Source: Filobasidium wieringae (lineage: Eukaryota > Basidiomycota > Tremellomycetes > Filobasidiales > Filobasidiaceae). From it: a DNA stretch of 64,000 nt. Under the pieces are notes generated by a model. The model was not told where the DNA came from, did no database searches, and saw nothing but the letters and a program-made list of their open reading frames with translations. Below are positions 5,714-64,000 of the stretch, one piece after another (within the stretch, counting starts at the first letter, position 1; each line of letters begins with the position of its first letter). A program made the translations under genes and the position numbers. The DNA lies in assembly GCA_001600055.1 (NCBI GenBank), contig BCIV01000025.1, forward strand, positions 51,254 to 115,253, given 5' to 3'.

Positions 5714-8700
5714 ATGTCAGCCTCCATCAATCGATCGGAATCTCCAGACCCTTTGGATCAACCTTTGCCCAGGTCTCCAATCATGCCTATCCACAGGGAT
5801 ATACCTCAGGTACTACTACCAACGCCTTCAGCTGAGTCAGCTGACTCTACCCTCATGGCTATCCTTCAAGAACTTAAGGACCTTAAGCTTGATAGCCTTC
5901 AGCTCAGGGAAGACAATCTTCAGCTCAGGGAGGACAACGCCTCAATCAAGAGAGAACTTGCACAACTTAGTACAGTTGCAGCAGACAGCGCAGGTCATCC
6001 ATCTGACTATGATGATACCTCCATCCCTCTTTCTAAACCGTTGGAAACTCAGAACACCACCAATGACTTGGTATCAAACAACTCACGCACTCGCCTCAAG
6101 GCATCTGATCTGCCTAAATACCACGGCAAAGACACCGAAGATATTGACTTATGGATCGATAAAGTCACCGCCATATATGACTACTCTGGCATCAAGAACT
6201 CAGAGCTACTTTCTCTTCTGCCCATGGTCCTACAAGGCAATGCTCTTACCTGGTTCACTCAACTAGGAAGGATCAAGAGATCAACTCATGTCACTTGGGA
6301 AGATTGGCAGAAAGCTCTACGCAATGCTTTCTACTTGCCCAATCACAGATCTGCTCTCAGACGACAATGCCTTTACCGTACACTACGGACCACTGAGTCC
6401 TTCAGCAACTATTTCCAGGACAAACAGCAGCTCCAACACTACGTCTACCCGGAGGGAACTGGTGACTTTGAACTTATTGAAGACATGCTTGAGGGCATTC
6501 CGCAGACTTTAAGGCCAGTCATTAAAGCCAGCATCAATCGCTTCACCACACTTGAAGAATTCAGACGAGTTCTCATTGACCTTGAACCTGGACTGCGCAA
6601 CAACTTGCCCAAACGTGTCACACCATCCACTGGTACAACATCACCTTACAACAGGCCTTACAACAGACCTCCTCAGACAAACGCAACAGACACAAAGCCT
6701 CCTAGTCCATGTCCCTTCTGTCAAGGCGACCACTGGAAAAGAGATTGCCCTCAGCCACAAGGAAGAAACAACAGTTCCTCAAAGAAACCTCCAGCCACAG
6801 CGCCCAACAACACGCCTACTACCGCTAGCAAATGGAAGCCAGCACAAAGCAACAATGTGTCTCTTACTGCAAAGAAAAGGGTCAGATTTTCTCTGAAAGA
6901 GGACAAAGCTTCTTCTACTACCCTCTTGGCAAACCGCACCAGACCGTCAGATGTTCCACTACACAAGCTCCATCAAAGCAAGACTCCTGCCTATACGGAT
7001 TGTGCCATCAACAAACCTGAAGGGAAATTGCATGAAGTCTGCATAGACAGTGGTTCCTCAATCTCTTTGATGGACTCTGAATATGTTAAGCTTCACTTCC
7101 CGCAATTAAGGATCAACTATGGCTCTGCTTTCCAAATCAAAGGTCTTGGAGAGTCCACTGCTCTTGGTTACATTGAGACGGATCTCCATTTCAAAACCGC
7201 TAGCAAGGATATAATTACTCTTCCTATTGCTTTCTTCATTGCACCTGGGATGTCTAGTAAGATTATCATTGGTAACAACTTCCTGGAACATCAGGGAGCC
7301 ATTATCAATTTGGACGCTTCAACCCTTGTCTTGAGGGCTTTCCCCCATGAAATCCTTCTGCGCACCAGAATGGATCCTGCACGCTTTGGGATCTTCCGTT
7401 CAAAGGAGACCTATCACATTCTGCCTGGATGCCAACAGACAATTCAGTTGGAAACCACAATGGAACATCAGAACAAGGATTCGAATCAATACTACTTTGA
7501 ACCTCTCAAACGTCAAGACACACTGGTCATTGCACGCTCTATTGGGGACCTCAGTAACAACATCCAACAAACAGAAGTTCTAAACGTTGGACAGCGTCCT
7601 TTGACCATCTCTCAAGGGTCCACCTTAGGAGATCTGATACCTTTGGTTAACAAGGATACACCTCCACCAATGGAACCCATCTTTGCAAATGTCAACAATG
7701 TGACAACCTCAGAACTCTTGACAGAGTTTCAGCCATTCTTAGACGCAATGGACATCAACACAGGTCTACAGCTTGAACAGGTTGAACAACTTCGCCAGGT
7801 ACTCCAAGACAACCTGCAAGCATTTACTTTTGGATCAAGGAAACTAGGACAAACAGATCTGGTCACCATGTCTCTTGAAACAGGAGATGCAAAACCGATT
7901 TCTACTCCTCCTTACCATGCCTCTCCTGCTGGCCGCAAGATAATCGACGACACTTTGGCTGAACTTATGGCAGATGATGTTATTGAAGAGTCTGACTCTC
8001 CATGGGCATCACCTGTTGTATTGGTCCGTCAAAAAGGGAAGGATCGGTTCTGTATCGACTATCGAAAAATCAACGAGGTCCTCAGAGCGGATCAATACCC
8101 GATTCCCCGCATAGACGATATCTTAGGACAGTTTGCTGGCAAGCAATACTTCACAACCTTTGATGCCAACAAAGGATTCCACCAGGTGGATATCAAATCA
8201 GAAGATCAACAAAAGACCGCCTTCAGAACTCATAGAGGTCTTCATCAATTCAAACGCATGCCTTTTGGACTGAAGACAGGACCTTCTGTCTTCCAACGTC
8301 TGACCGACAGGATTCTTGGTCGCTACAAATGGCAGATTGCTCTGGTCTACATTGATGATATCATCGTCTACTCCTCAGACTTTGATGCACATGTCAAGGA
8401 CATCAATACTGTCTTACAATTGGTCTCCAAATCAGGTATCACACTATCTCCTAAGAAGTGTCATGTTGCCTATCGATCTATCCAAGCTCTTGGTCACTCA
8501 GTCAGCAACCTAGGAATTGGAACCGTTGGAGAAACCATTCGGGCCGTCTCTGAATTTCCAACACCATCTAACACCAAAGCACTTCAACGCTTCCTTGGAT
8601 TAGCTGTTTACTACCGCAAGTTTGTCAAAGACTTTGCCACAGCTGCTTCTCCACTCTACAGTCTTTTGAAGAAAGACATAGCTTGGAACTGGACCGAAGC

Positions 8701-9394
8701 TTGTCAACATGCTATGGACCAACTCAAGACCAATTTGGTCTCCGCACCTATCCTTGCTCATCCAGACTACAACAAGCCTTTTCTACTACACACAGATGCA
8801 TCCACTGTGGGACTTGGTGCAGTACTTGGACAATTGGATGAAAACAACCAAGAACATCCGATAGTCTATTTATCAAGAACACTCAACCCAGCTGAGAAGA
8901 ACTACACATCAACTGAGATGGAGTGTTTGGCAATAGTATGGGCCGTCAAGAAGCTGCATGCTTATCTCGATGGATCCACTTTCACCATCATCACCGATCA
9001 TTCTGCTCTACAATGGTTACTGGACTTCAATGGCTCCAACAAAAGGCTTGTCAGATGGTCAATGGAACTACAACCTTATCGGCCCAACATGACTATCCGC
9101 TACAGAGCTGGAAGGGTTCATGATAATGCAGACCCACTATCTCGTGCACCATTGCCTACAACAAACACAACAGCAATCTGCAACAACGTCAACTCTATTT
9201 CTCATGTAGAGTATCCTCCAAAACTAACCAATCAAATCAAGGCTAAATACAAGGACGACAAGGACTTTGGGTTAATTCTAGCCCTACTCACACAAGATGG
9301 TCCTGCACCACCACACCTGAAGCACTTCTACTATCGGTCAGAGCTCCTATTCTATTCAGTTCCTTTGATTTTGGCTGCAACCAGAACACTGTGA
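5714..9394 (+). CDS. Ty3/gypsy retrotransposon Gag-Pol, truncated before integrase
   Basis: A single 1,226-codon frame fuses gag and pol. In order it shows a Gag capsid-like region (about residues 125-310), a CCHC zinc knuckle (CPFCQGDHWKRDC, about 333-345), a retroviral-type aspartic protease (DSG at about 445), a reverse transcriptase with YIDD (about 879-882) and an RNase H (TDAS at about 1027) that runs to the usual RNase H end (DPLSRAPLP). Family members continue with an H2C2 zinc finger and DDE integrase. Here the frame runs into unrelated sequence near 9355 and stops at 9392-9394, so integrase and 3' LTR are missing. The rest of the frame is undamaged, which suggests a fairly recent insertion whose 3' end was lost. 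It could not integrate without help from another copy. The copia-type LTR at 9513 lies just beyond the breakpoint. Confidence 0.95.
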   Translation: MSASINRSESPDPLDQPLPRSPIMPIHRDIPQVLLPTPSAESADSTLMAILQELKDLKLDSLQLREDNLQLREDNASIKRELAQLSTVAADSAGHPSDYDDTSIPLSKPLETQNTTNDLVSNNSRTRLKASDLPKYHGKDTEDIDLWIDKVTAIYDYSGIKNSELLSLLPMVLQGNALTWFTQLGRIKRSTHVTWEDWQKALRNAFYLPNHRSALRRQCLYRTLRTTESFSNYFQDKQQLQHYVYPEGTGDFELIEDMLEGIPQTLRPVIKASINRFTTLEEFRRVLIDLEPGLRNNLPKRVTPSTGTTSPYNRPYNRPPQTNATDTKPPSPCPFCQGDHWKRDCPQPQGRNNSSSKKPPATAPNNTPTTASKWKPAQSNNVSLTAKKRVRFSLKEDKASSTTLLANRTRPSDVPLHKLHQSKTPAYTDCAINKPEGKLHEVCIDSGSSISLMDSEYVKLHFPQLRINYGSAFQIKGLGESTALGYIETDLHFKTASKDIITLPIAFFIAPGMSSKIIIGNNFLEHQGAIINLDASTLVLRAFPHEILLRTRMDPARFGIFRSKETYHILPGCQQTIQLETTMEHQNKDSNQYYFEPLKRQDTLVIARSIGDLSNNIQQTEVLNVGQRPLTISQGSTLGDLIPLVNKDTPPPMEPIFANVNNVTTSELLTEFQPFLDAMDINTGLQLEQVEQLRQVLQDNLQAFTFGSRKLGQTDLVTMSLETGDAKPISTPPYHASPAGRKIIDDTLAELMADDVIEESDSPWASPVVLVRQKGKDRFCIDYRKINEVLRADQYPIPRIDDILGQFAGKQYFTTFDANKGFHQVDIKSEDQQKTAFRTHRGLHQFKRMPFGLKTGPSVFQRLTDRILGRYKWQIALVYIDDIIVYSSDFDAHVKDINTVLQLVSKSGITLSPKKCHVAYRSIQALGHSVSNLGIGTVGETIRAVSEFPTPSNTKALQRFLGLAVYYRKFVKDFATAASPLYSLLKKDIAWNWTEACQHAMDQLKTNLVSAPILAHPDYNKPFLLHTDASTVGLGAVLGQLDENNQEHPIVYLSRTLNPAEKNYTSTEMECLAIVWAVKKLHAYLDGSTFTIITDHSALQWLLDFNGSNKRLVRWSMELQPYRPNMTIRYRAGRVHDNADPLSRAPLPTTNTTAICNNVNSISHVEYPPKLTNQIKAKYKDDKDFGLILALLTQDGPAPPHLKHFYYRSELLFYSVPLILAATRTL

Positions 9395-45556: not shown

Positions 45557-48500
45557 TCAGGAGCGATGCCCCCTGGTAGCCCTACGCTTGCTGTCCATTG
45601 TTAATCTTACTTTTCGAAACGGATTGGCCTTTGGGCTTCTGCCAACGACCATTGCGGGAAGGGCGATATCGTTGGTACGGTAGACTGCCATCGAATCGGT
45701 ACCTCCACACGTTTGATTGGCGTCTCCTGTGCATTTCGAAGTACAAGTCGTTGCCTGGACAAGACTCGTCCAGCTGGTCCCACAAAGACAGGTGTCTCCG
45801 TTCGTGACGGCCGCAATAGCGAAACCCTTGTATCGACAGAGAACCTATGGTAGAGACAAACTCAAGATCGGTTCCATGCTCTAGACTATTGTGACAGGTT
45901 TATTTGAGTGACTTACCTTACACATCGACGGATCAAGGGTCGAACACGACATTTCGAACGACGACATGACCTTCTTATCGAGGGCGTAACACACCGGCCT
46001 CGAAGAATTTAAGGTCGCGCTGGGCGCTGCGGCGATAGTAACAGAGGAGGAAGACGCCGTATTCTCGATTACGAGCGCAACGCTACCTGGAACTCCCTTC
46101 GTATTGGTAGACACTGAGCTAGTCCTAGCTGAGACGATGCTGGTAGGATTGCTGGCTATAGCGGTTACGGAACTGGTTTTTGCGGTGACCGCAGAAGCTA
46201 TAGTGCTGAGCCCAGCAGTGGTAGCCGTTCCTGTCCTACTTGCAGCCGTCGCGGAGCTAGTCCTTGCGGTGACTGCAGAAGCCATATTGCTAGCCCCAGC
46301 GGTGGTAGCCGTTCCCGTCCTACTTGTAATACCAGAGGAGGCCAACATCGTGGACGAAGCCCGTTGAGTGGAGGTTCCAGAAGCAGATGAAATATGCGTT
46401 GTTGTGGAAGATAGGGTGGCAGATAAGACAGTCGAAGCCGAAGAGGATGCGACCATGGACGAAAGGACCGTTCGAGAACTGAAAGCAAAGCTCGATGACT
46501 TGGTGGAACTGGCCAAGGAGGGGCTTGGAGTTACAACATCGTTCTTGCTGCTAGTGAATACACTAATCTTCTGAGACCCTCCACACTTGTCGGTAGATCC
46601 AGCGCCGGGACAGACCGTGCTACAGCTTGCTTCTGACTGCAGCATAAGGGGGATCTTCGTCCCGCAGGTGCAGTAGATTCCGCTCGTTCCAAACGTCGGG
46701 TAGCCCTTTGACAAGCAAAAACGTTGGCAATATTGCAAAGTGTTCGAGCTCAACGAAGTCCAAAAGTCAAATGCCGAAGGATTATCATCAGTAAAACAGC
46801 CAACATAGCCGGCTTGACCAAGGCTAGGTGGCATTGAGCCGGCCCCGCTAGTGTCATAGAGCGAGACCTGAGTACTTCCACCACACGAAACCGAGCTGTT
46901 TCCGCTGCAGGGAGTGCTACATACGCTGGCGGGTTGAGCAATGCCAGCGTCTGCTGCGGCACCACAGAGACATCGGTTCCCGTTGAGAAGGAAAGCCCCA
47001 GGCGCGCCCTTGTTTCGACAGGTCCTTCGGCAATACTCGGGCGTCATGGGACTATACACGACGGCATACGTGGCCTTGGCAATCACATTGCCCGTTGTGT
47101 AACAACCTATGTTGCCCTCCAGGCCGTTTGAAGTTGGGGCCTCCGCAGCACCAGCGGTCAACATGACCGCGAGACGATTGTAGCCACCGCACATCTTAGA
47201 CGCATCACCGCTACAAGCGGTATTACATTCGCTGGCAGCCACTCGGTATCCTCCAGAAGCTGGAGTCAGTCTGTCAGTACAAAAACACTGATTGCCAGCC
47301 TCAACTCCTGAGACCGCATAGCCCAATCCCTTGCAAGTGCTCTGACACGACAAAGGAGTGTTGGTATTGGACGTGACGACTAGGTTGGCCAACTTCGGGT
47401 TTCCCTCTGCAAAACACCCAACAACGCCGTTCGGATCCGCAGCGAGAGAGATGGCAGACGAGACGTTGGCGCCTTCGAGAGAAAATACGGAACCCACGTT
47501 GTTACCTCCACAGGTAAGATTGTTGTCTCCAGTGCAGACGGTTGCGCAATCCGAGTCTGCTCGCTGCTGTGACGGTCTCTGAGACCCACACCAACATCGA
47601 TTGCCGAGAGTGCTCAAGGCGAAGTGGAACGACCTAGCCTGACAATATTGATTGCATGTATCGCGGGTCATGTATGTGCTAGTGTAGGTAGCATTGTTGA
47701 CCTTGTTGACATCGGAGTAGCAACCAATGTAGCCAGAGGATGGTAGCGTCAAGGAACCAACTTCGTACGTATCGACCAGATAAGCTGCTCCGCAAGTCTC
47801 CGTCTTGTTCCCAGAGCACGCAACGTTGCAGCTAGTTCCAGGGTTGCGAGTAGTGGCTGCCGGAAGGATCTGCCCACAATAGCAATTGGTGCCCGATCGC
47901 GTTGCCGCGTAGGCGTAGCCTTGAGCAGCACACGACGCTCGACAGCTGGAAGATGACATTGAAGGCGAGCTATAATACGCAGCAGTAAAGCTACTCGAAG
48001 GGAAACATCCTTGCCACCCCAGTGCCTTAGAAGAAGCAGCGACAGGAGCATCGGTTGTGTTATAGATCGAAGCAGTATAACTACCACCGCAGACCGCGCT
48101 CGAGTTGCCTGTATCGACTTCCGAGGTCAGTGATTCCGACTGAACCGAAATGTCGCGCCAAGACCCACCTTTACAAGGAGTAGTACAAGAAGACTCGGGA
48201 AGGATACTGCCCGAGGCCCACTTGTTTCCACAGAAGCAAGCATTTCCACTCTCAGTTGCCGCTAGCTGGTACGGACCCAGCTCGCGACAACCCTGACGGC
48301 ACATCTGTATAGTCATATTGTCCGAGGTCCACGTGTATGCTGTCAAGCCTCGAGGATTTGCAGCATCCTTGTAACAACCGATATACGAAGATGGTTTGGA
48401 GGGTGAGTTGTCGCCCGAAGCTTTGGCAGTGACGTTGTAGACATCCTGAAACCCCGACGATCCGCAAAACTGGGTCGCGTTACCACTACAAGGATAGTTA

Positions 48501-51239
48501 CAGTTTTCGTGCGGCATTCTTCGCGATGTCGGTTCCGATCCGCAGTTGCAGATGTTCTTGTTCTGGACCCCAGCATAAGGGTATCCAAACTGAACGCAAC
48601 CCGCCTTGCATGTCTCGACGGTCATTGTTACAGCGGTCCAAGAGTAATTAGTCAACTGCAAATTGTTGCCCGTACTGGCGAAACATCCCATCCAGCCAAC
48701 CGGGTAGGTCGCCTTCAGCCCATCAAACGTGTAGTCGGCACCCTTGACGACATCGTAAATTTCGGTACTATAGGAAGAACCACACGTCTGCGTAGTATTG
48801 CCTCTACAGGGAGTTGTACATTCACTTGCAGGAAGACGAGAACCAAAGTTGCTGCCGACTTTACCACATTGACATTCTGGAAGGGGAAGGAACGACAGAC
48901 GTGAGTCAGCCGAGTTGAATACCATCATGTTCATGAGAAAAGGGACGCCTACTATTTCCAACGGCGACCGATCCATACGTGTAACCCATCTCACTACATC
49001 CGTTGACACACGACGCGACCGTCAGACTATTATTGAGCCAGGTCACATCATCGACAGCGTTTCCCCCGTCAGTGTAACAACCTAGCCAACCCGGGGGCTT
49101 GTCTGGCAAATTGATAGACACCGCAGAATTGCTCAAATTATATAGGCTGCCGACGTATTGACCTCCACAAATCTCGCTCGAATTGCCACTGCAGGGACGA
49201 TCGCAACGATCCATGGGAACGTAGTTTCCACCTGTGACAGCAGCAGTCTCGAGGCTAGTGTTTCCGCAGAAACAGTTAAGCCCTACCGTCGTCATGGCCC
49301 ACGTCGCGTTTCGATTGACACAGGCCTGCAAGCAAGTTTTTTTTGTGAGTGAGTTCGAGAAAAACGAGTAGAATGCGGTGCTCGTCAAGGATTGACTTCC
49401 AGCCGGCTGATAGCAACCCCGAAGTTCCTTTCCGCTTGTGCTTGCCACTGTTCCCGGGGGCGCGTAAAGAACGTCGACTATGTACCCGTTACCACACTGC
49501 ATTGAGTCGACATGGCCAGGCGGGATGGTCATCACCAGCTCGATCGACAGGAAAACCATTGGTTCGACGACTCACGGTCTGCGACGCATTTCCGGGACAA
49601 GGGACGGTACACATGCCTTCCTGAAAAGCGACGCCAGGATTGATGCCCGTACCGCAATAACACTGCCCGAAGTATTACGTTGAGGTCAGCTCTTTGGAGT
49701 CAAGAATTTGTTACAAATTCCATGACAATACGTGACTCACAGTATCTGCGTGGTTGCCCACGGCTGCATACCGATATCCAGCCTCGAGACAGGTCTCGGT
49801 ACAGCGATCCTGAGTGAGCCTATCGGGATCCTGGTAGCTAATCTGATTCAACAAACCTCCGGTCGAGATACAACCGATACGCTGCCATCCCCCAATAGTC
49901 GGTAGAGTAAACGCTCTTTGCTGTTCGGGTTTGGCTACAAGAGGACCATCCGTGCCCAACAACTTAGAAACGTCCAGTTTGTCGATAGAGGGGTTGCAGG
50001 TCGGTTTAAGGCTTTCGTTTCCCCCTAGAGAAGTGAAACAATAGGGTCAACATCGGAGAGGGATACTATGATAAATGACAATATACGATTTACACAAAGG
50101 ATTGCATCCAGGAAGAGCGGAGATGGCGGCGTTTTCCACTACTCCAGTTGGCTCAATTAACGTGCCTGCGCTTGGCCGGCAGGCTCGTGCCTTGTTGACG
50201 TCCATCGAGGCTGCAAAGACAGGACACGCCGACATGGCGATGTTGTCCCCGTTACCGTAACAAGCTGGCGAATCGAGCGCCCTCTGAAAGACATCGCGGT
50301 CCCAACCATTCGTAAAATCGCCGTGGAAACCGTAGCCGGTAGTGTCGCCATTGGCCCAGGCAAGGTGACCGTTGAGATTGGTGCCGGGAGCATAGTCGCT
50401 TGTTTTCCACGTGGCTTCCAACATCAATGTAGGTACTCGAACGGGATGGGACCAAGGACAAGCTCCAATCCTGGTGCTACCTTGGCCAGCAGGGTAAGAC
50501 ATGTGAGCGTTCCCGGGCAGCCAGAGGTCCTTGCCGTTCCAACAGTTTTGGTAGAACAGATTGGTCTTGAGTCCATACGGACAAGGCATGTCAAAGTTAA
50601 AATCAGGTCCCTGAATGATATCAGTAAGATTCCGATTCCTCTGACAGCTAAATGCGTATCCCCCGGTTGCTTGTTTGGCGTTCGGGTCACCGGAAACGAT
50701 CCGGAGACCATCAGGAAAGGCTGAGACGTTCGAATTGGGTGAATTTTCAGGCAAGAAGTAGTAGACACGGGTGGTCACGCCTAATGGGGCGAATTGCTTG
50801 CCAGAAGGCGTATCCTCGACCCAGTATAGTTCTGTCGTCGAAACAAGGAGAAGCGCAGTGAGGACGGGTTAGTTTGTAGATTTATTCGAAGCTCAAATCC
50901 CATACGGTACGTACGAGGCATCCAGTAGTTAGACATGTCTGCCTGGAAGGCGACCGAGGAACATGAAGATGCTCGGTTGTCTTCAAAGTTGAACGCTGCT
51001 TTGAAAGCAGAGGCACCTGCTCAGGAAGCGAGAAGAGCTTTAACCTCGAAGCGTTACCTATTATTTGTGCGATACTGACCAAAGATACGGTGCATGTGGC
51101 TCGACTGAGTGTTGGGGCTGATGATTGTATCCAGCTGCTCCGAAGCCAGAGGATAAAGCTCGTCCAGGTGCCAGCCCGGGCGTGCGGTCACTACGCCAGC
51201 GCAGATAAGAATGGTAGAACTGAAAGAGAAGACCCGCAT
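45557..51239 (-). CDS. DUF1996 protein with tandem WSC domains
   Basis: Eight exons (51239-51080, 51016-50915, 50831-50094, 50024-49741, 49662-49576, 49496-48953, 48876-45917, 45844-45557) join in phase to about 1,720 residues. A signal peptide (FSFSSTILICAGVVTA) leads into a DUF1996 domain (ISPNTQSSHMHRIFG, NYWMPQLYWVEDTPSG, about residues 25-330). About ten WSC domains follow, each with the GC(Y/F)...CxxxC...CxCG...C...CSG...CGG cysteine pattern. Next come a Ser/Thr/Ala-rich linker (about 1330-1560) and one more partial WSC-like module. WSC modules bind polysaccharide, and in yeast Wsc proteins they sense wall stress. DUF1996-WSC proteins are secreted fungal proteins of unknown function. 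No transmembrane helix or GPI signal is evident at the C-terminus (basic tail), so it is probably secreted and wall-bound. The long linker is a likely O-mannosylation stalk. Confidence 0.95.
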
Positions 51240-54597: not shown

Positions 54598-57098
54598 TTA
54601 CCAGTACCCGTTCCATCGCTCAAGCTCATAACACTCCGATATGGCTTTTATCCTTTCTGGCGCATGTAGCTGTGATTGTCCAGACATATTGGCTGCTTGT
54701 CCATATGCTATCCAATCGAATCTCATTATAGCATCTAGGTTCTCAAATTGTGTGGCAGCGCGCATCTCTACAGGAATGCTGTAAGAGCAAATTGCAATGT
54801 GAGATCTCGAGCTTGCCGGTAATTTAGGTGAACTCACTATCGATCTATAGGATTGCGGGCAGCTATTCTGACCTTCTCTATCATATCAGTGTTGTTGTTT
54901 GAATCCCAGCTGTAAACATAAGGAGGACCAAGGAGTTGAGCGGGTCCGTGTTGGGAATAATCTCTAAGGAGAGAATTTAGTATGTCATCTAATGGATCGC
55001 CATAACCACTGCTGCGTACTGGTTAAGAAGTTTCCAACCATCAGTCTGGAAGGCACCTTTATGGTATGGCAAGACCACTGGAGTTCCCGCACATCTGCGC
55101 AACAGACAGCAAATCAGCGGGCTATGAACTTCCTACCAATGACTCAAGAACACTCACAGTGATTCATATACAGAAGGACTGATTGGTGGACGTCCCAGAC
55201 CAAGCATGACTTTGCTTTCGCGAGCTATACGCCTGAACTCCTCCTTGCTAACCTCTCCTAGCACGGAAAGTCCTTCTGGCATAGGATAGCGCTCATCTCC
55301 TTCCTTGTGAGGTTGGTCTGAAGCTACAGTAAGAAATTGGAGACCGGTCAGGGCCTTAGATTCGGGCCAGAAAGTCGAAGGGATTCGACTTTCATGAAAG
55401 TATTTTGTGAGCTTGGCCAGAATGAACTGATACGAAGGCAATCAGATGATGGGAGGGTTGTATTTCCACTAGCCGACTCACAACTTCGTCCTTTTTTTCC
55501 GTGTAACTGATCGCGGGTTGAGCGATACATTCACGTTCGATTGAAAGATGTATCGCGGTGTGGTTTGGGTAGTCAAAAGGCCTAAGATTCGATCTTTCAG
55601 TCACATGCACGCGGTGTCTTTTACATCACTCTTACACAAGACTCATTGCCTGCGACAGTGGGTTAAAATAGAACTCGCTGTGTGGTAGGCAACCATCCCA
55701 ATTGCCAGGCCTTGCGCCCCACTGAGATCATCAAGTCCACTTAGTTCCCTGGACAATGCAGCACGCAAGGTGACTCACGTAGTTTACCGAGAACATCTTC
55801 CATAGCGGACTAGGATCAAACGAGTAGTGAGTTACAACGTGGACTGTTGGATCTGAGAGGTACGGCTAAGGTAGCAAGCTCACATTGTGCCTCTACTCTT
55901 GACAGGCAAACTATCTAAATCCTCTCTAGTCCAAAACCACTTCGGTCCTTTAATTGGTTGACCTTGATTGTCTGCCATTACCGAAGCACTCGAGTCAAAC
56001 TGAACGTCGTATCGATCCGAGGTAGGTTCGAACGTGGACCAATCACGACATCGGGCGTCTTCTTGACAGGCCAGAATCTGGTTGGTGTCCATCCAGATGT
56101 GGGTGCTGAATGTTCAGCTTACAGTGGTGAGCGTCGGACCCTGAGGGCTGAGAAAATCGATGACATACATGACATCAGGCATAGCGTTGTGGATCGCTAT
56201 CAGGCTTTGATAGTATTTTACCGCCAACACCGTATAACCCATTTCGATTAACGCGTCGATATTGCTTCTCATCCAGATTGCCTCGCCGTGCTCGACCCCT
56301 CCGGACGGTCGAAACGCCTGTGAGAAGTCGCCCCAATCGCCGAGAAGCACTTTGAATGTCGTTTGTGTGCATTCTTGCGGATCGGAGGAATCGGACTCAG
56401 AACGACCGGAAGTGAATGAGGTGGGGTAGATGGGCAGAGAAGATATAGGAAAGGTATTGTTCGCGGCGCAACGCTTTAGGCGGTCGAGAAATCGCCTATT
56501 CCGCTCGCGGTTGTCCTCCCTACAGACGCAACGTTTGAGGCTGTCAGTACCAAGGTCTGGGTGTATTGCCCTCGACAATGAGAATGTGCACGCACTCAGC
56601 ACGCGTTTCTCCCCACCAATCCCAATCATTGGCCTGTTTCCAGATCCTCGCTCTCCGACACTGGGACCACAGACGGTCCCCGGCCCCGACCTGCATCTCG
56701 GGTCGCCAGTCCCGACACATGTCCGCGTTGTCTCCTTCGTCCGCCAACCAGTCTCTCGACAACGCGAACATTTCCTGCTCGAGCCGAGCCACATCGATGG
56801 TTGAAGGGGTGTAAGCGGAATCTGCATCCATCAACATGTTTAGATGCTGATCGAACAGCCTTTTGCCAATCGTGCCGGGTCGATATACATTGCGTTGATC
56901 AGAATGAGACCACCCGTTCGCTGAATTGACAATATCGTCAGCGCCGTAATACGGCTGACTCGTGATAGCTTCAATACCTAAGTGGAAGCCATTTGTGTCT
57001 ATCAAAAGGGTGCCGTGGTGCAGGATGGCAGAGAGGAATAAAGCTGAGCCAATCACGAAGAATCTTGTCCTAGAGATCATCCTTCTTGAAGTCGTCAT
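54598..57098 (-). CDS. GT18-family glycosyltransferase
   Basis: Ten exons (57098-56596, 56519-56169, 56105-55904, 55865-55779, 55721-55636, 55593-55482, 55426-55158, 55094-55020, 54963-54838, 54778-54598) join in phase to about 663 residues. A single N-terminal helix (FFVIGSALFLSAIL) makes it a type II Golgi-type protein. C-terminal motifs are those of GT18 (MGAT5-like): VHVVTHYSFD, KVMLGLGRPPISPSVYESL, CAGTPVVLPY and QHGPAQLLGPPYVYSW. Animal GT18 enzymes add beta-1,6-GlcNAc to mannose; fungal homologues are uncharacterised as far as I know. Two introns are very short (55866-55903, 38 nt; 55594-55635, 42 nt) and are needed to keep the frame. Without them the gene would look broken. It is divergent from the epimerase-exostosin gene. 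Confidence 0.92.
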
Positions 57099-57927
57099 CG
57101 AAGTAACAGGCAAGTGTTCTTTGGATTCTTGAAGCTATGTTAAAGGACGATGACATGACTCATTTCACAAGCTCGCGAGTGCTACATCAACCTTTCCTTT
57201 ACCTATACATACTAGTACAGGGTAAAGGCAGAATCGTGGTCAGGCGAGGCAGCTAATCAAAGGAAAGCTTTCGCGCATGGCTGAAAGAATGTCGTCTGTG
57301 GGGGCAAACCATTCACAGCAAAAGATGGCAACCATCGTATTCGCAGACGTGCTATGCCTGGGACGGAGTGGTGCGATCCAGTGGAGTCCGATTTCTGTGA
57401 CGATCGGGAGGCAAAGCTTGAACATCGGTGAAGCAGCGGGTCGCGGATCAATTTAGGACCCGTTCCGGCGCTAACCTTACAGTCAGAGACTCGGAACCAA
57501 CGTCAGGTAGTTTCCCTTCTGGAACAAATATGCTTGGCCGTCGATACCGTGATGTTCTTGATAGACGTACTGGGGTCTATGTAATGGACGCTCAATTTAC
57601 TTCCTGCCATTCAAAGAATTAACCGGACCTAAACAACGCTCCGCTATCATCTGGAAACAGCATGCTCACGGTGATACAACGACTGACAGCTTATTGCTTA
57701 CATCGCTCCGACACGTTGGCCTTGCCACCGGTAACTCAACCAGTAAAAGAGCAATCACGCAAGGAGCCTTTGTATACTATATAAAAAATAGGCGAACATT
57801 GTTGAACTGCCCTACCTAATCTCCAGTTCCGCTTCAGCCGCATTGCCTCGGTCGACCTTCGTCGATACCTAGCGGCAAGTTGTCGAAATCAGCAGTCGCT
57901 CACAGCTAGAAATCCACGAATACAATC
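57099..57927. promoter_or_regulatory. Shared divergent upstream region of GT18 and epimerase-GT47 genes
   Basis: This 829-bp gap between two genes transcribed in opposite directions holds no supported coding frame. A TATAAAAAATA-like tract lies about 145 bp before the epimerase-GT47 ATG. A shared promoter is inferred from arrangement only. Confidence 0.4.
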
Positions 57928-60900
57928 ATGGAAATCCTTACATTGCAAACCTTTAGTCGAGCGATCAGAAGAAGGCGGACTATCTCAACCCTCTCCTTCA
58001 TCGCTATAATTTACAGTCTACTTATTCTTCATGCCGTACGTCTCATGCCGATGATCGCAAGGTTTCGTGTGTATACTGGCCTCAGTCTGCTGATTGGGGA
58101 CTGTCCTTTCCTGTTCACCCTATATAGTCAGTGTATGCTCCAAAATCTGTCGACCGGAAGCTGGGCGAGTTGGGATTCCTGCAGCAGAGAGAGCACCTTC
58201 GCCAAGAAATGTCCATACCCTTACCCAATGACCAAGGACTATATGCTGCTCCAATAAGAAGAAAAGGTCGGATAATCGTAACAGGCGGTGGTGGCAATAT
58301 AGGTAAGCCTATCCAGAAATCCTATGTTCTTCGTCGTTTTTCGTCACCCGCAACAGTGGTTGACGTATTACAAGAGAATTCATCAGGCCGCTAAATATTT
58401 GCTATTACAGGTAAACACCTCCTACACCGCCTTCTCTCGTCTCATATCCCAACGACCGTCGTCGATCTCATCTTTCATCCTCAAGAACTAAGTGCCTTTC
58501 ATGAACTTTATCCCTCCTCCGGATTTGAGTTTGTTCAAGCGGATATTCGTAACCGCACCGTCTTGCGACAAGCCCTTTCCCACTCTGACGGCACATCGAT
58601 CCCAGTCATAGGTGTCATCAACCTCGCTGCGGTCTCTCGCGTCCTCTGGTGTTTGGAAAATGAAAGGGATTGCCAGAGCATTAACATCGATGCACTTGGT
58701 TCGATTCTCGACATCACCTCACGATTCGCAGAAACGACCGGGAATCGACCATGGTTAATTCAAGCCAGTAGTCGTGAAGTGTACGGCGTTTCCGAAACTT
58801 TCCCCGTAGAAGAGCATCATCCTACCCTGCCTGCGAATGTTTACGGGTCCAGTAAATTAGGAGCAGAAGAAGTCATCACTCGACACGCCGGTGAGACCAC
58901 CGACTTGAGAGCGATCGCGCTACGGTTTTCCAATGTTTATGGAGGAGTCGCAGATCACAAAGAGCGATTAGTCCCGGCTATCATGACCAATGCGATGTCT
59001 CATCGTCCGATCCAAATCGTTGGGGGGAATCAGGAAGTCAGTCTTTTTCAGTCAGTATCGAGGTTCCTATATGTACTGAGGCTAAAAAGAACGATCGTGT
59101 TCGAATCGATAGCTGGACATGGTCCATATCGACGACGTCGTTGACGCGATAATTCTCGCCATGCATCGATTAGAGAATAATGAATCCGGGTCCTGGTGGT
59201 TTCCTTTTTTTAGCTTGCTAAGATCGACGAAGAGCTATCGAACGATAGCAAAACCCTCTTCTGTCGAATTTTTCAATGTGGTCGGTCAATCTGCCGTACC
59301 TGCAGTGGATCTCGTCAAGAAGGTCTTGATGTTGACTAGAAGTCAGTCCGCTGTTCAGCTCATACCAGCGGATGAGCGCTTTCCAGACAAGTACCAGGGA
59401 AGTCCTGATAAAGCTGAACGCGTGCTGGGGTACAAGGCTAGAATCGGAATCGACGAAGGCCTGCACCGGTTGGCAGCGGCGTATTATACCGAAACCGAAA
59501 GATTCCTTCACAGGAAGCAGCTGGCTGATTGCTCGAAAGGCGAATACGGAAAGCAAGACCTGCTGCGGCTGGACGGATGTCTGGGAAATGTAGCTGCCAG
59601 CCTTGATGGGATGATCGGTTTACTGAACTATGAGCAGCCAAGGAAAGGGGAAGTGAACAGACCGAGAGAATGGCGTTGGGCCGACGCAATCCATCCGTGG
59701 ACTTTCAAGTTTGACGTCAAGCAAAAGGAAGACGGTCAAGTTAGATTGATCATCCGAGATTGGACCAACAAGAAGTCGTGGCGAGAGTTCGTTCATGAGG
59801 AAACTGGCGCAATCTTCAATATCACGAATCGCTTACCTGGCGGCCCTGACGACGCTGATACCGAACTTATTATGGAGGTCCACTCTGGAACAGGGCACAT
59901 TGCTCTTCAGCACGCTTCAACCGGGTTCCACTTGATACCGCCGGAGAAAGACGGCGAGACGGTCTCCATCGCAAGGGAGCCAAGCCCAAACCCGTATTCG
60001 TTTAGGCTCATACCTACCTGCTGCGCCGGCCAAAATGCTCCCTGGCCATTCTTCAACGAGGATCCTGTTGCATCACTCATCAATGATCAGAAGCAAGTTG
60101 CACCTCATCTCTTTAACGCATCGTCGGTTGACGAGGCCTGCCAACGCCTAAGCATAGCTCACCAGGTAGTAAAGCTGAATCTGGACAGGCTCGAAGAATA
60201 TGCCCGTCCGATCACATTGGGCATGGGAGATATGCCATTGGGAAAACACAATGAGTGGGCATTTGCGAAACGGGATTCCTGCTCCAATCTCTGCGATCAT
60301 CCTACAATCTGTTTGGACACCCAATCATGTGCTTGTGTAAAATCGAACTGTGTCCCTCAGGCTAGGTTCCCTTTCTCCGCCTATGCGAATGTCGATAGGT
60401 TATCATACGGGGAGAATCATGATGGGTCTTTAAGGACGGACGCTGGCTCGTCCTTGGTCGAGCAGGTCAATCGCACATCATGGCTCTCAGTACTCCATGC
60501 GCCTGCTTCTAGATATCTAAGTCGTAATCCTGCTTTCCCGCGGATTAACGTGGGGTCCATTCCGCCAGACCTTCAGGCGAAATACGATGCCGAACCTGAC
60601 CGCTTCACCGACTTTCTCAACCACGCCGGATGTTTTTCAGCGGACGTTTCCCTGTGGCGAACGTTTGAGTTGATGGACCGGAATGCAGCCGGTCCGCCAG
60701 CTCTTACGTTCGTTCCCGTTCTCCAAAGGCCGTCTTTTGTGAGTCTCAACCCCGAACACAGAACAGCATTCATGCTCAACAGATTGTTACCATAGTATCA
60801 GAGTCTTCAGCCTATTTTTGATCATATTGCCCCTGTTCCTCAAGTTCCGTTTGTCGTTCCCTTCACGCACGACTGGGGTGGCTGTAACACGTTTGTTTGG

Positions 60901-61969
60901 GATGTATACGAGATCAGGAGGCAGCGAAAGAGCCTGGGCGAGGTTATGAATGGGAACATAGCCTTTTCAGTAATGGGAGATCTTGTAAGTCCCAGCGATA
61001 CCACAATGAGGATTGGTCGATCTGATAAAGGCATGTCGAACAGAACAGCAATTGTAGGTCGAGAGCGGGAAATAAAAAACCACGTAATGACAGAGCCTTC
61101 TTGCGAAATCACAGGCTATCGACCCGATCAAGACATCATGTGAGTCCCTCAGACAAAGGCTTCTCCTGTCCATCAAATCTGACCGGCATTTCATAGCATT
61201 CCTCCCCGCACTTGTCTAGCACAAGAGCTTTACGACCGATACAGTGACATGCGGAGTGTCAAACCTGCTCGATATCGGAAGGTCCTAACGACGTTCAGTG
61301 GATCCATTTGGGGCACTGGGGCTCACGTTCGTACAAAGGTGATGTGCGATCGACCGGTGAAACCGCGCAACTTGATAGGAGGCGAGCGTTTGGAAACGCT
61401 GTGGCAATCGAAAGGAAATTACAAGGACTATCTTGATCTGCTCAACGAGACAGTGTTCTGCCCCTTGATCAAAGGCACTACAGGTGGGCATGCACCTGTC
61501 GCTCGAATCATGTCTCCCGCATATGGCTGACCTTCGAACCACGGATGTTGCAGGTTGGGCGACCAGAACTGTTGACGTGATATATGCGTGAGTGTTGTCA
61601 TGCTAGGCGAGGGTCATCATCGGTTAAGGCTTATTGTCGTCCTGATCGTGGAGTAGTGGATGTATTCCAGTGATCATCGGCAAAGAAGCTCACTTTCCGT
61701 TTTGGGACATGATCGACTATGGCAAGATATCCATCAGCGTGACCGAGTCTGAACTCAACCGTTTGGAAGAAATCTTGTTGTCGTACACTTGGGAACAAAT
61801 TGAGGTTATGCAAGCCAACTTGATGCTCGTTCGAGATGCGTTCATGTATCCACTGAACGGCCGAGAAATGGATGCTCTGACTACGAGAGGACCGGCTTTC
61901 TTCGCGTTACACTCGGCCGCTCTGGGGCTACTCACCAGATATCCAACCGTGACGTTGTCCGATGGATAG
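57928..61969 (+). CDS. SDR nucleotide-sugar epimerase fused to exostosin (GT47)
   Basis: Eight exons (57928-58035, 58128-58302, 58411-59036, 59113-60738, 60796-61139, 61197-61483, 61554-61587, 61657-61969) join in phase to about 1,170 residues. An N-terminal helix (about 20-36) predicts a type II membrane protein. An extended-SDR domain follows: IIVTGGGGNIG (85-95) for NAD binding, QASSREVYG, the YxxxK pair in VYGSSK (Tyr239, Lys243) and VHIDDVVDA, as in UDP-sugar epimerases/decarboxylases. After an unassigned beta-rich segment (about 540-680) and a Cys-rich EGF-like patch (about 693-715) comes a GT47 exostosin domain with THDWGGCNTFVWD, GYRPDQDIIIPP, FSGSIWGTGAHVR and VDVIYAGCIPVIIG. The logical role is making a nucleotide sugar and transferring it in the Golgi lumen; the sugars are unknown. 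Open sequence around 59180-59250 may hide one further short intron. Confidence 0.92.
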
Positions 61970-62887: not shown

Positions 62888-64000
62888 ATGTTCTCTCTAC
62901 ATGACATCTTGGGACCACCTAGACGATACCGCCTCATCTTAGTAATCGTGGCATTGCTCTTAGTAGTTCACTATACAGGTCAGACGGCACACATCATCCG
63001 TCATTGGCAACCCTCTGAGAAGAGGTATACACCCGGGAGACTCGGTAAGATCCTGGAGAAGCGTTATGAGAGCCTCGGTGCGACTGAGGAGATTTCCAAG
63101 GAACAAACTGGATGGGGTCTACTTGCTCAAAGTGAAGGACCGGAAATGTTCCCTCTCTTGCCCTACGAGCATATGCACAAGGATGATGACGCTATAGAGT
63201 GTTCGATACTTCAGAAACCAGAAGGGTTCGAAGACGGTCCGGATGACTTGCAGACTTGTTGGAGATTGAAGCTTCATAGACAATTGAGCGAATGGCAACC
63301 GCATCCCAAGCTCAGGTACGTCTCGGCTCATGGTGGCTTGATATCCGCTCGCGTGCGCACTTGCTTTTCTGCTTCCTGACACTGTTGGTGCAAATCCATA
63401 GCAACAGCCACGATCAAGGAGAACGGAACAACCTCGCCGCTCGCAGACTCCTAGGATGTCTCCTCGCCCCTCTTTTTCCAGAACCTCTCAATGAGGGCGG
63501 ATGTTCTCTCAAAACGACCAAGATAGTATTGGGAAATTGGGGGTACTGGACCCAGGCATTCAACCGTGATGGTACGTCAGGAGAACATATCTGGGCGATG
63601 AGCTTGGTAAGTGTCTCGTCCAAGATGACCAATCATATCCCTGCGGCGACTGTTTTGTGGAGTTCTGAGTAAAGATCTGCTCGTTTTCGCCCGTCTAGAT
63701 GGACGCGATGGAAGAACAAGGGTATACCGTCATGGCTGTGACCTCGTACGAAGGAATGATCATGACTCATGCCGCCTTACCTAATCTTGTGTGAGCCGGA
63801 GATGATTTGATCCTCTGCTCCCTCAAGACCTTATAGGGGGGTCCGGGGGTGGGGGTTTTTTTGGCGTCATCTAAACAAAACATGTTAGGTATGTCTGGAT
63901 GCGCATTTTTCTCAGCTCTCGGAATATACCAAAAGTTTTACGTAAAATCGTAAACTGACGGCGCTAGGGCCAATAAACCCCGTTTTTGAGCGCAATTTTG
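62888..64000 (+). CDS. Second GT18-family glycosyltransferase, incomplete at window edge
   Basis: Exons 62888-63315, 63402-63606 and 63699-63790 join in phase to about 241 residues. A fourth may start at 63889. Like the gene at 54598 it is a type II membrane protein (helix RLILVIVALLLVVHY) whose stem carries a KTTKIVLGNWGYWTQAF block. That block matches TTFKVLLGDWGDFSQAF in the other copy, and QGYTVMAVTSYEGMIMTHAALPNLV matches MGYTVLAVKYYQSLIAIHNAMPDV. The two are clear paralogues. After the VWM that corresponds to HIWM in the first copy, similarity ends abruptly and a stop follows, so the C-terminal catalytic half is absent here. A G-rich tract (63833-63862) lies in the last intron. The gene may be truncated by an insertion or may simply use a different exon beyond the edge. 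Confidence 0.8.
63833..64000. other. Sequence of unlike composition at the right edge
   Basis: A tract of G runs and T runs (GGGGGGTCCGGGGGTGGGGG then T7) at 63833-63868 is followed by AT-rich sequence that does not match the paralogous GT18 gene. G-rich termini like this occur at the ends of some DNA transposons, so this may be the edge of an inserted element. The other end is outside the window. Confidence 0.35.

Follow-up and report, generated by a model that had tools for sequence, protein, structure and literature searches.

A membrane-anchored SDR-GT47 fusion of Filobasidium wieringae belongs to a conserved basidiomycete family with and without the SDR catalytic tyrosine

We analyzed a window of 64,000 nucleotides from Filobasidium wieringae (assembly GCA_001600055.1, contig BCIV01000025.1, positions 51,254 to 115,253 of the forward strand) and found that a single intron-containing gene on its plus strand (window positions 57928-61969, with the ATG at 57928 and the stop codon at 61967-61969) codes for an extended short-chain dehydrogenase/reductase (SDR) joined to an exostosin-type glycosyltransferase of family GT47. 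The predicted order of modules is an N-terminal membrane helix, the extended SDR, a beta-trefoil, an epidermal growth factor (EGF)-like element and GT47. Judged from sequence, this fusion is an old and conserved basidiomycete family with two clades, one (clade A, containing the window gene) that has retained the SDR catalytic residues and a sister clade (clade B) that lacks the catalytic Tyr. We favor, at a probability of roughly 0.5, a reading in which the clade A proteins would be type II Golgi enzymes whose SDR remodels a uridine diphosphate (UDP) sugar and supplies it to their own GT47.

Gene structure and domains

The gene model is well supported. A GT..AG splice model is in frame from end to end and gives a protein of 1,155 amino acids if 59190-59234 is removed as an intron, or 1,170 if it is read as coding. 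The relative P0032, which is 88% identical over the shared stretch, has all 15 residues of this putative intron with no indel, which makes the 1,170 amino acid model the likelier one; an alternative intron at 59190-59248 was excluded because it breaks the frame. A second doubtful intron at 60985-61095 would, if real, cut 37 residues from an insert that is missing in seven of the eight relatives compared, the eighth (P0002) carrying a shorter insert. Between the end of intron 3 and the start of intron 5 (59113-60738) there are 542 codons without a stop, which start in the final third of the SDR and continue through the middle module and the EGF-like element into the beginning of GT47. This open stretch across the SDR/GT47 junction renders an internal gene boundary very unlikely.

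Two of the modules are recognized by Pfam, namely Epimerase (PF01370) at residues 85-328 with an E value of 5.4e-34, and Exostosin_GT47 (PF03016) at residues 921-1092 with an E value of 3e-25 and 89.6 bits against a gathering score of 33.4. The GT47 part also matches Exostosin-2 chains, with an E value of 1.2e-9 for a C-terminal stretch of about 97 residues. The putative anchor is a hydrophobic 19-mer that starts at residue 22, after RRRR, with a mean hydropathy of 1.97; a rival stretch within the SDR reaches 1.90, so this figure alone is not decisive for the anchor. The middle module is predicted to fold as a beta-trefoil and has no Pfam match by sequence. Fungal beta-trefoil lectins such as CNL, MPL, CCL2 and the Polyporus squamosus lectin would share this fold, but identity to them is only 7-14% in the matched structural rows. 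The EGF-like element likewise has no Pfam match, and its six cysteines are kept in all aligned rows with letters there (39-40 in clade A and 27 in clade B).

Together with the full-length homologs described below, these results bear out what an earlier note on this DNA had read in it, which was one continuous gene at 57928-61969 with a TGGGGNIG motif, an SDR YxxxK pair (YGSSK) and an N-terminal hydrophobic helix, in the order membrane helix, SDR, EGF-like element and GT47. Pfam supports the SDR and GT47 assignments and not that of the EGF-like element, and the predicted beta-trefoil between the SDR and the EGF-like element had been overlooked.

Distribution of the fusion

A search with the whole protein (E <= 0.001) matched 31 proteins, 21 of which align with at least 88% of the query and are 34-43% identical to it. 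The listing gives both Pfam domains for 24 of the 31, with some of the others being fragments or poor models. The matches come from Tremellomycetes (Kwoniella, Naematelia, Cutaneotrichosporon, Vanrija and Saitozyma), Dacrymycetes (Dacryopinax and Calocera), Agaricomycetes (Tulasnella, Cantharellus, Clavulina and Mycena) and metagenome sources. Look-ups gave the classes of Kwoniella, Cutaneotrichosporon, Naganishia, Dacryopinax and Tulasnella, and those of Naematelia, Vanrija, Saitozyma, Calocera, Cantharellus, Clavulina and Mycena are general background. A one-off fusion is ruled out by these 31 proteins. The fungal listings (Calocera, Kwoniella, Naematelia, Cutaneotrichosporon and others) have the same modules in the same order as the window gene and are annotated by domain only, under titles such as 'glycosyltransferase family 47 protein', 'Exostosin GT47 domain-containing protein' and 'hypothetical protein'. 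Note that the Kwoniella models P0001 and P0002 carry an aminotransferase domain (PF00155) ahead of the fusion, perhaps from a mis-joined neighboring gene.

When the F. wieringae genome itself (19.76 Mb, 33 contigs) was searched, three PF03016 matches were obtained that fall in two genes, both of which are SDR fusions. The second gene, on contig 10 (locus L005, 502-4471; 1,184 amino acids in its splice model), is 24.7% identical to the window gene over a 1,200-column alignment and has the same order of membrane helix, SDR, middle module, EGF-like element and GT47, with the SDR catalytic Tyr changed to Leu. A search with this second protein, which scored the best 7,993 candidates, found at least 31 proteins, 28 of 31 being listed with both domains, that include members from Cryptococcus, Kwoniella, Tremella mesenterica, Naganishia and Cutaneotrichosporon. 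A single species contributes four of the 31, each from a different strain, and the Favolaschia protein (P0069) belongs to clade A.

The GT47 half searched alone gave 13 matches, several of them fragments and none resembling a complete unfused GT47 protein; the full-length searches had length limits under which short unfused proteins could not show up. Most matches from a viral structure library were SDRs, with a single phage GT47 (row 45); no title named an SDR-GT47 fusion, and many rows were nameless.

Two clades

We placed the SDR and GT47 parts in separate trees with a quick method, using 48 of 71 rows; the 23 rows that were dropped as fragments or near-duplicates were assigned to a clade by similarity and by which search had found them. 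Both trees gave an identical split of 24 and 24 rows with a support of 100 each, and loss of the catalytic Tyr takes one change on the tree. The window gene, which has the module order and the Tyr- and Lys-containing SDR that characterize clade A, falls in that clade. Counting only those clade A rows that have a letter at the respective position, the three Gly of the TGxxGxxG nucleotide-binding motif (TGGGGNIG in the window gene) are invariant in 26, 25 and 27 rows. The catalytic Ser and Lys of extended SDRs are each present in 30 of 30 such rows and the catalytic Tyr in 29 of 30, the remaining row having Phe. In clade B, the named members of which are all Tremellomycetes with Cryptococcus among them, all 31 rows with a letter have Leu, Ile or Val in place of the Tyr, and Lys is kept in 27 of 31. 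A crude identity-based assignment that put the clade A rows P0020, P0021, P0023, P0024 and P0069 and the fragment P0034 in clade B was discarded, as the trees placed the first five of these with A. The clade A protein P0011 and the clade B protein P0055 may be linked paralogs in one species, the only shared clue being that both are listed with a longest contig of the same length, 55723 bases.

The two clades also differ in how their modules are conserved. Median pairwise identities, taken from hand-picked rows, are 0.51 for the SDR, 0.28 for the trefoil region and 0.42 for GT47 in clade A (15 of 40 rows, 105 pairs), and 0.42, 0.42 and 0.61, respectively, in clade B (16 of 31 rows, 120 pairs). 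As clade A spans a wider range of fungi than clade B, only the ratios within a clade are meaningful. These indicate that, relative to GT47, the SDR is under strong constraint in the clade that retains the catalytic residues and under weaker constraint in the clade without the Tyr. This contrast is the strongest evidence in the present analysis that the SDR of clade A is probably an enzyme.

The likely SDR reaction and its alternatives

In a fold search with the whole model, which was taken up by SDR rows and is uninformative for GT47, 42 of the 50 rows listed are titled epimerase and 3 dehydratase. Since the structural neighbors are mostly 4-epimerases, C4 epimerization of a UDP-sugar is the favored reaction, at low certainty. 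Several observations weigh against this assignment. The SDR reaches no NCBIfam cut-off among the models listed (at most 25 per list), including those for 4-epimerase-type families, with 83.5 bits against a cut-off of 262.3 for the GalE model TIGR01179 and 99 bits against 365.1 for the dTDP-glucose 4,6-dehydratase model TIGR01181. Residue 304, ahead of a D-x-x-H-x-x-D motif, is Leu, and a basic residue occurs there in 0 of 61 rows with a letter. In contrast, all five solved chains compared (two being variants of one protein) have Arg or Lys at this position; in GalE, pyrophosphate is bound by this Arg. The Glu of SSREVYG is common to 6bi4 (a 4,6-dehydratase) and 3vps and is absent from 8rdg, 8rdi and 3aw9, so the reaction may not be epimerization. 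Furthermore, a free-standing GalE-like gene lies on contig 13 of the genome and thus the fused SDR is not its sole candidate for such an activity. UDP-glucose, UDP-glucuronate and UDP-GlcNAc 4-epimerases such as TM0509, human GALE and the Bacillus cereus UDP-glucuronate epimerase are mostly soluble and unfused.

The alternative that survives best, which we nonetheless consider unlikely, is that the SDR is structural or regulatory in both clades, serving GT47 by helping it to fold, by forming a dimer interface or by sensing nucleotide sugars, with the clade A residues kept for NAD or sugar binding only. Clade B is still fused despite the loss of Tyr in every row, which means that a normal SDR active site is not needed for the fusion to persist, and the missing basic residue at position 304 points the same way. 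However, Tyr, Lys and Ser are nearly invariant in clade A, and in the 15 rows of this clade that were compared no other module is as well conserved as the SDR. It is quite improbable that the SDR is active as a 4,6-dehydratase- or decarboxylase-like enzyme making a deoxy- or pentose donor for GT47: 6bi4 is the best sequence match among solved chains (E 2.2e-18) and shares the Glu before VYG, but the Asp adjoining this Glu in 6bi4 aligns with Arg in the window gene, the TIGR01181 score is far from its cut-off and the structural rows favor epimerases. Finally, that two neighboring genes were taken for one, or that the assembly is mis-joined, has next to no probability: even though the homologs are mostly or wholly gene predictions, this reading is largely ruled out by the open stretch over the junction, and the same module order on another contig and the pairing of both Pfam domains in most relatives also speak against it.

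Feature coordinates and neighboring genes

Table 1. Features of the fusion gene in window coordinates.
Feature	Position	Strand	Basis or remark
Whole coding region	57928..61969	+	In-frame splice model, full-length homologs; 7-9 introns and ~1118-1170 codons, depending on two doubtful introns
N-terminal membrane helix, type II anchor expected	57976..58035	+	Hydropathy maximum
Intron 1	58036..58127	+	GT..AG, frame restored in splice model
Extended SDR (epimerase/dehydratase) domain, introns included	58266..59520	+	
Intron 2, within TGGGGNIG codons	58303..58410	+	Splice model
QASSREVYG, SDR catalytic Ser and conserved Glu	58761..58787	+	Alignment, letters checked
YGSSK, SDR catalytic Tyr/Lys pair	58842..58856	+	Alignment of clade A rows
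Intron 3	59037..59112	+	Splice model; joins GGNQE to LDMVHIDD, as homologs do
Doubtful intron 4, probably coding	59190..59234	+	P0032 has the stretch without indels
Beta-trefoil (lectin-type fold) module, predicted	59551..60036	+	Fold prediction, between SDR and EGF-like element
EGF-like six-cysteine element	60280..60351	+	Cysteines kept in all rows with letters
GT47 (exostosin) domain, introns included	60352..61969	+	PF03016; Pfam-matched portion ~61066-61777
Intron 5	60739..60795	+	Splice model
Possible extra intron (GTAAGT..AG, 111 bases) or part of insert	60985..61095	+	Alignment of relatives
Intron 6	61140..61196	+	Splice model
Intron 7	61484..61553	+	Splice model
Intron 8	61588..61656	+	Splice model

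The fusion is flanked by a minus-strand gene (54900-57113) and a plus-strand gene (62890-64000) that have a related exon in common (E 1e-8). The minus-strand gene has what we take to be a GT18-like motif; assignment of the flanking genes to GT18 was rejected, as the Pfam match (E 0.11) falls short of the cut-off and a search for relatives of solved structure gave none at E <= 0.1. Searches of the genome gave one GT18 match, on contig 16 and below the cut-off, and no match to RGP (PF03214). As a lead only, the fusion may sit within a small group of glycan genes. In the end region (63300-64000) the contig stops together with the window, so the last gene is probably cut. Elsewhere in the window, a 1226 amino acid open frame at 5714-9394 (plus strand) resembles, by eye, a Ty3/gypsy-type retrotransposon polyprotein, and exons with WSC domains (PF01822) and DUF1996 (PF09362) at 45881-50778 (minus strand) likely code for one or more wall-associated proteins.

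Discussion

In the favored reading of clade A as a self-supplying Golgi enzyme, we infer a type II protein anchored in a membrane of the secretory pathway, probably that of the Golgi, with the extended SDR, beta-trefoil, EGF-like knot and GT47 following one another on the lumenal side. Holding NAD+ tightly, the SDR would most likely alter a UDP-sugar at C4 in the manner of a 4-epimerase. An imported UDP-sugar would be converted by the SDR in the lumen and the product used at once by the GT47 of the same chain, by analogy with the plant proteins MUR4 and ARAD1, to elongate or decorate a glycan of the cell-wall or capsule type that the trefoil may hold. Such a fusion would raise the local concentration of product, and true tunneling is not implied. 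Clade B would have kept the SDR in a non-catalytic form.

PMC3283625 describes MUR4 (UDP-xylose 4-epimerase) and ARAD1 (GT47) as having their C-termini in the Golgi lumen, and this membrane-anchored SDR and GT47 in one compartment resemble the arrangement proposed here. However, MUR4 and ARAD1 are separate proteins, whereas the window gene has an SDR and a GT47 domain in one chain. To our knowledge neither plant protein has a trefoil or EGF-like module. The animal exostosins EXT1, EXT2 and EXTL3 have the GT47 domain in common with the window gene, but in these proteins GT47 is paired with GT64 and there is no SDR partner.

In the fungal literature, PMC8355462 gives the C. neoformans protein as the sole fungal GT47 reported so far, with an acidic polysaccharide suggested, and also gives GT47 as present in lichen-associated basidiomycetes; PMC5872309 places GT47 in Cryptococcus and Mucoromycotina, and PMC12289600 has one GT47 entry annotated as a xyloglucan galactosyltransferase. 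The word 'epimerase' is absent from the main texts of these three papers. Searches of an openly licensed library, which excludes most subscription papers, gave no functional account of the SDR-GT47 architecture and no description of the trefoil or the split into clades A and B. The earlier note's view that the order of domains is unusual is only half right, as the fusion is an established family in the databases. As far as we found, it seems to be uncharacterized. The same note's proposal of a self-supplying Golgi enzyme would fit clade A, with its retained Ser, Tyr and Lys and its well-conserved SDR, and the channeling that it put forward stands as a hypothesis.

More tentatively, it is possible that basidiomycetes evolved a self-supplying Golgi glycosyltransferase guided by a built-in lectin fold and that, after duplication, the Tremellomycetes including Cryptococcus kept a copy with the SDR as a non-catalytic sensor or donor-binding subunit, in which case this family would explain the fungal GT47s of capsule-forming yeasts that lack an assigned product. 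The SDR of such a fusion can be assayed with purchasable UDP-sugars. Since both GT47 genes of this genome and most of the relatives found are fused to an SDR, the donor sugar, and hence the glycan, becomes testable. The pair of clades, with and without the SDR Tyr on the same scaffold, offers a naturally occurring test of whether the fusion is there for catalysis or for assembly only.
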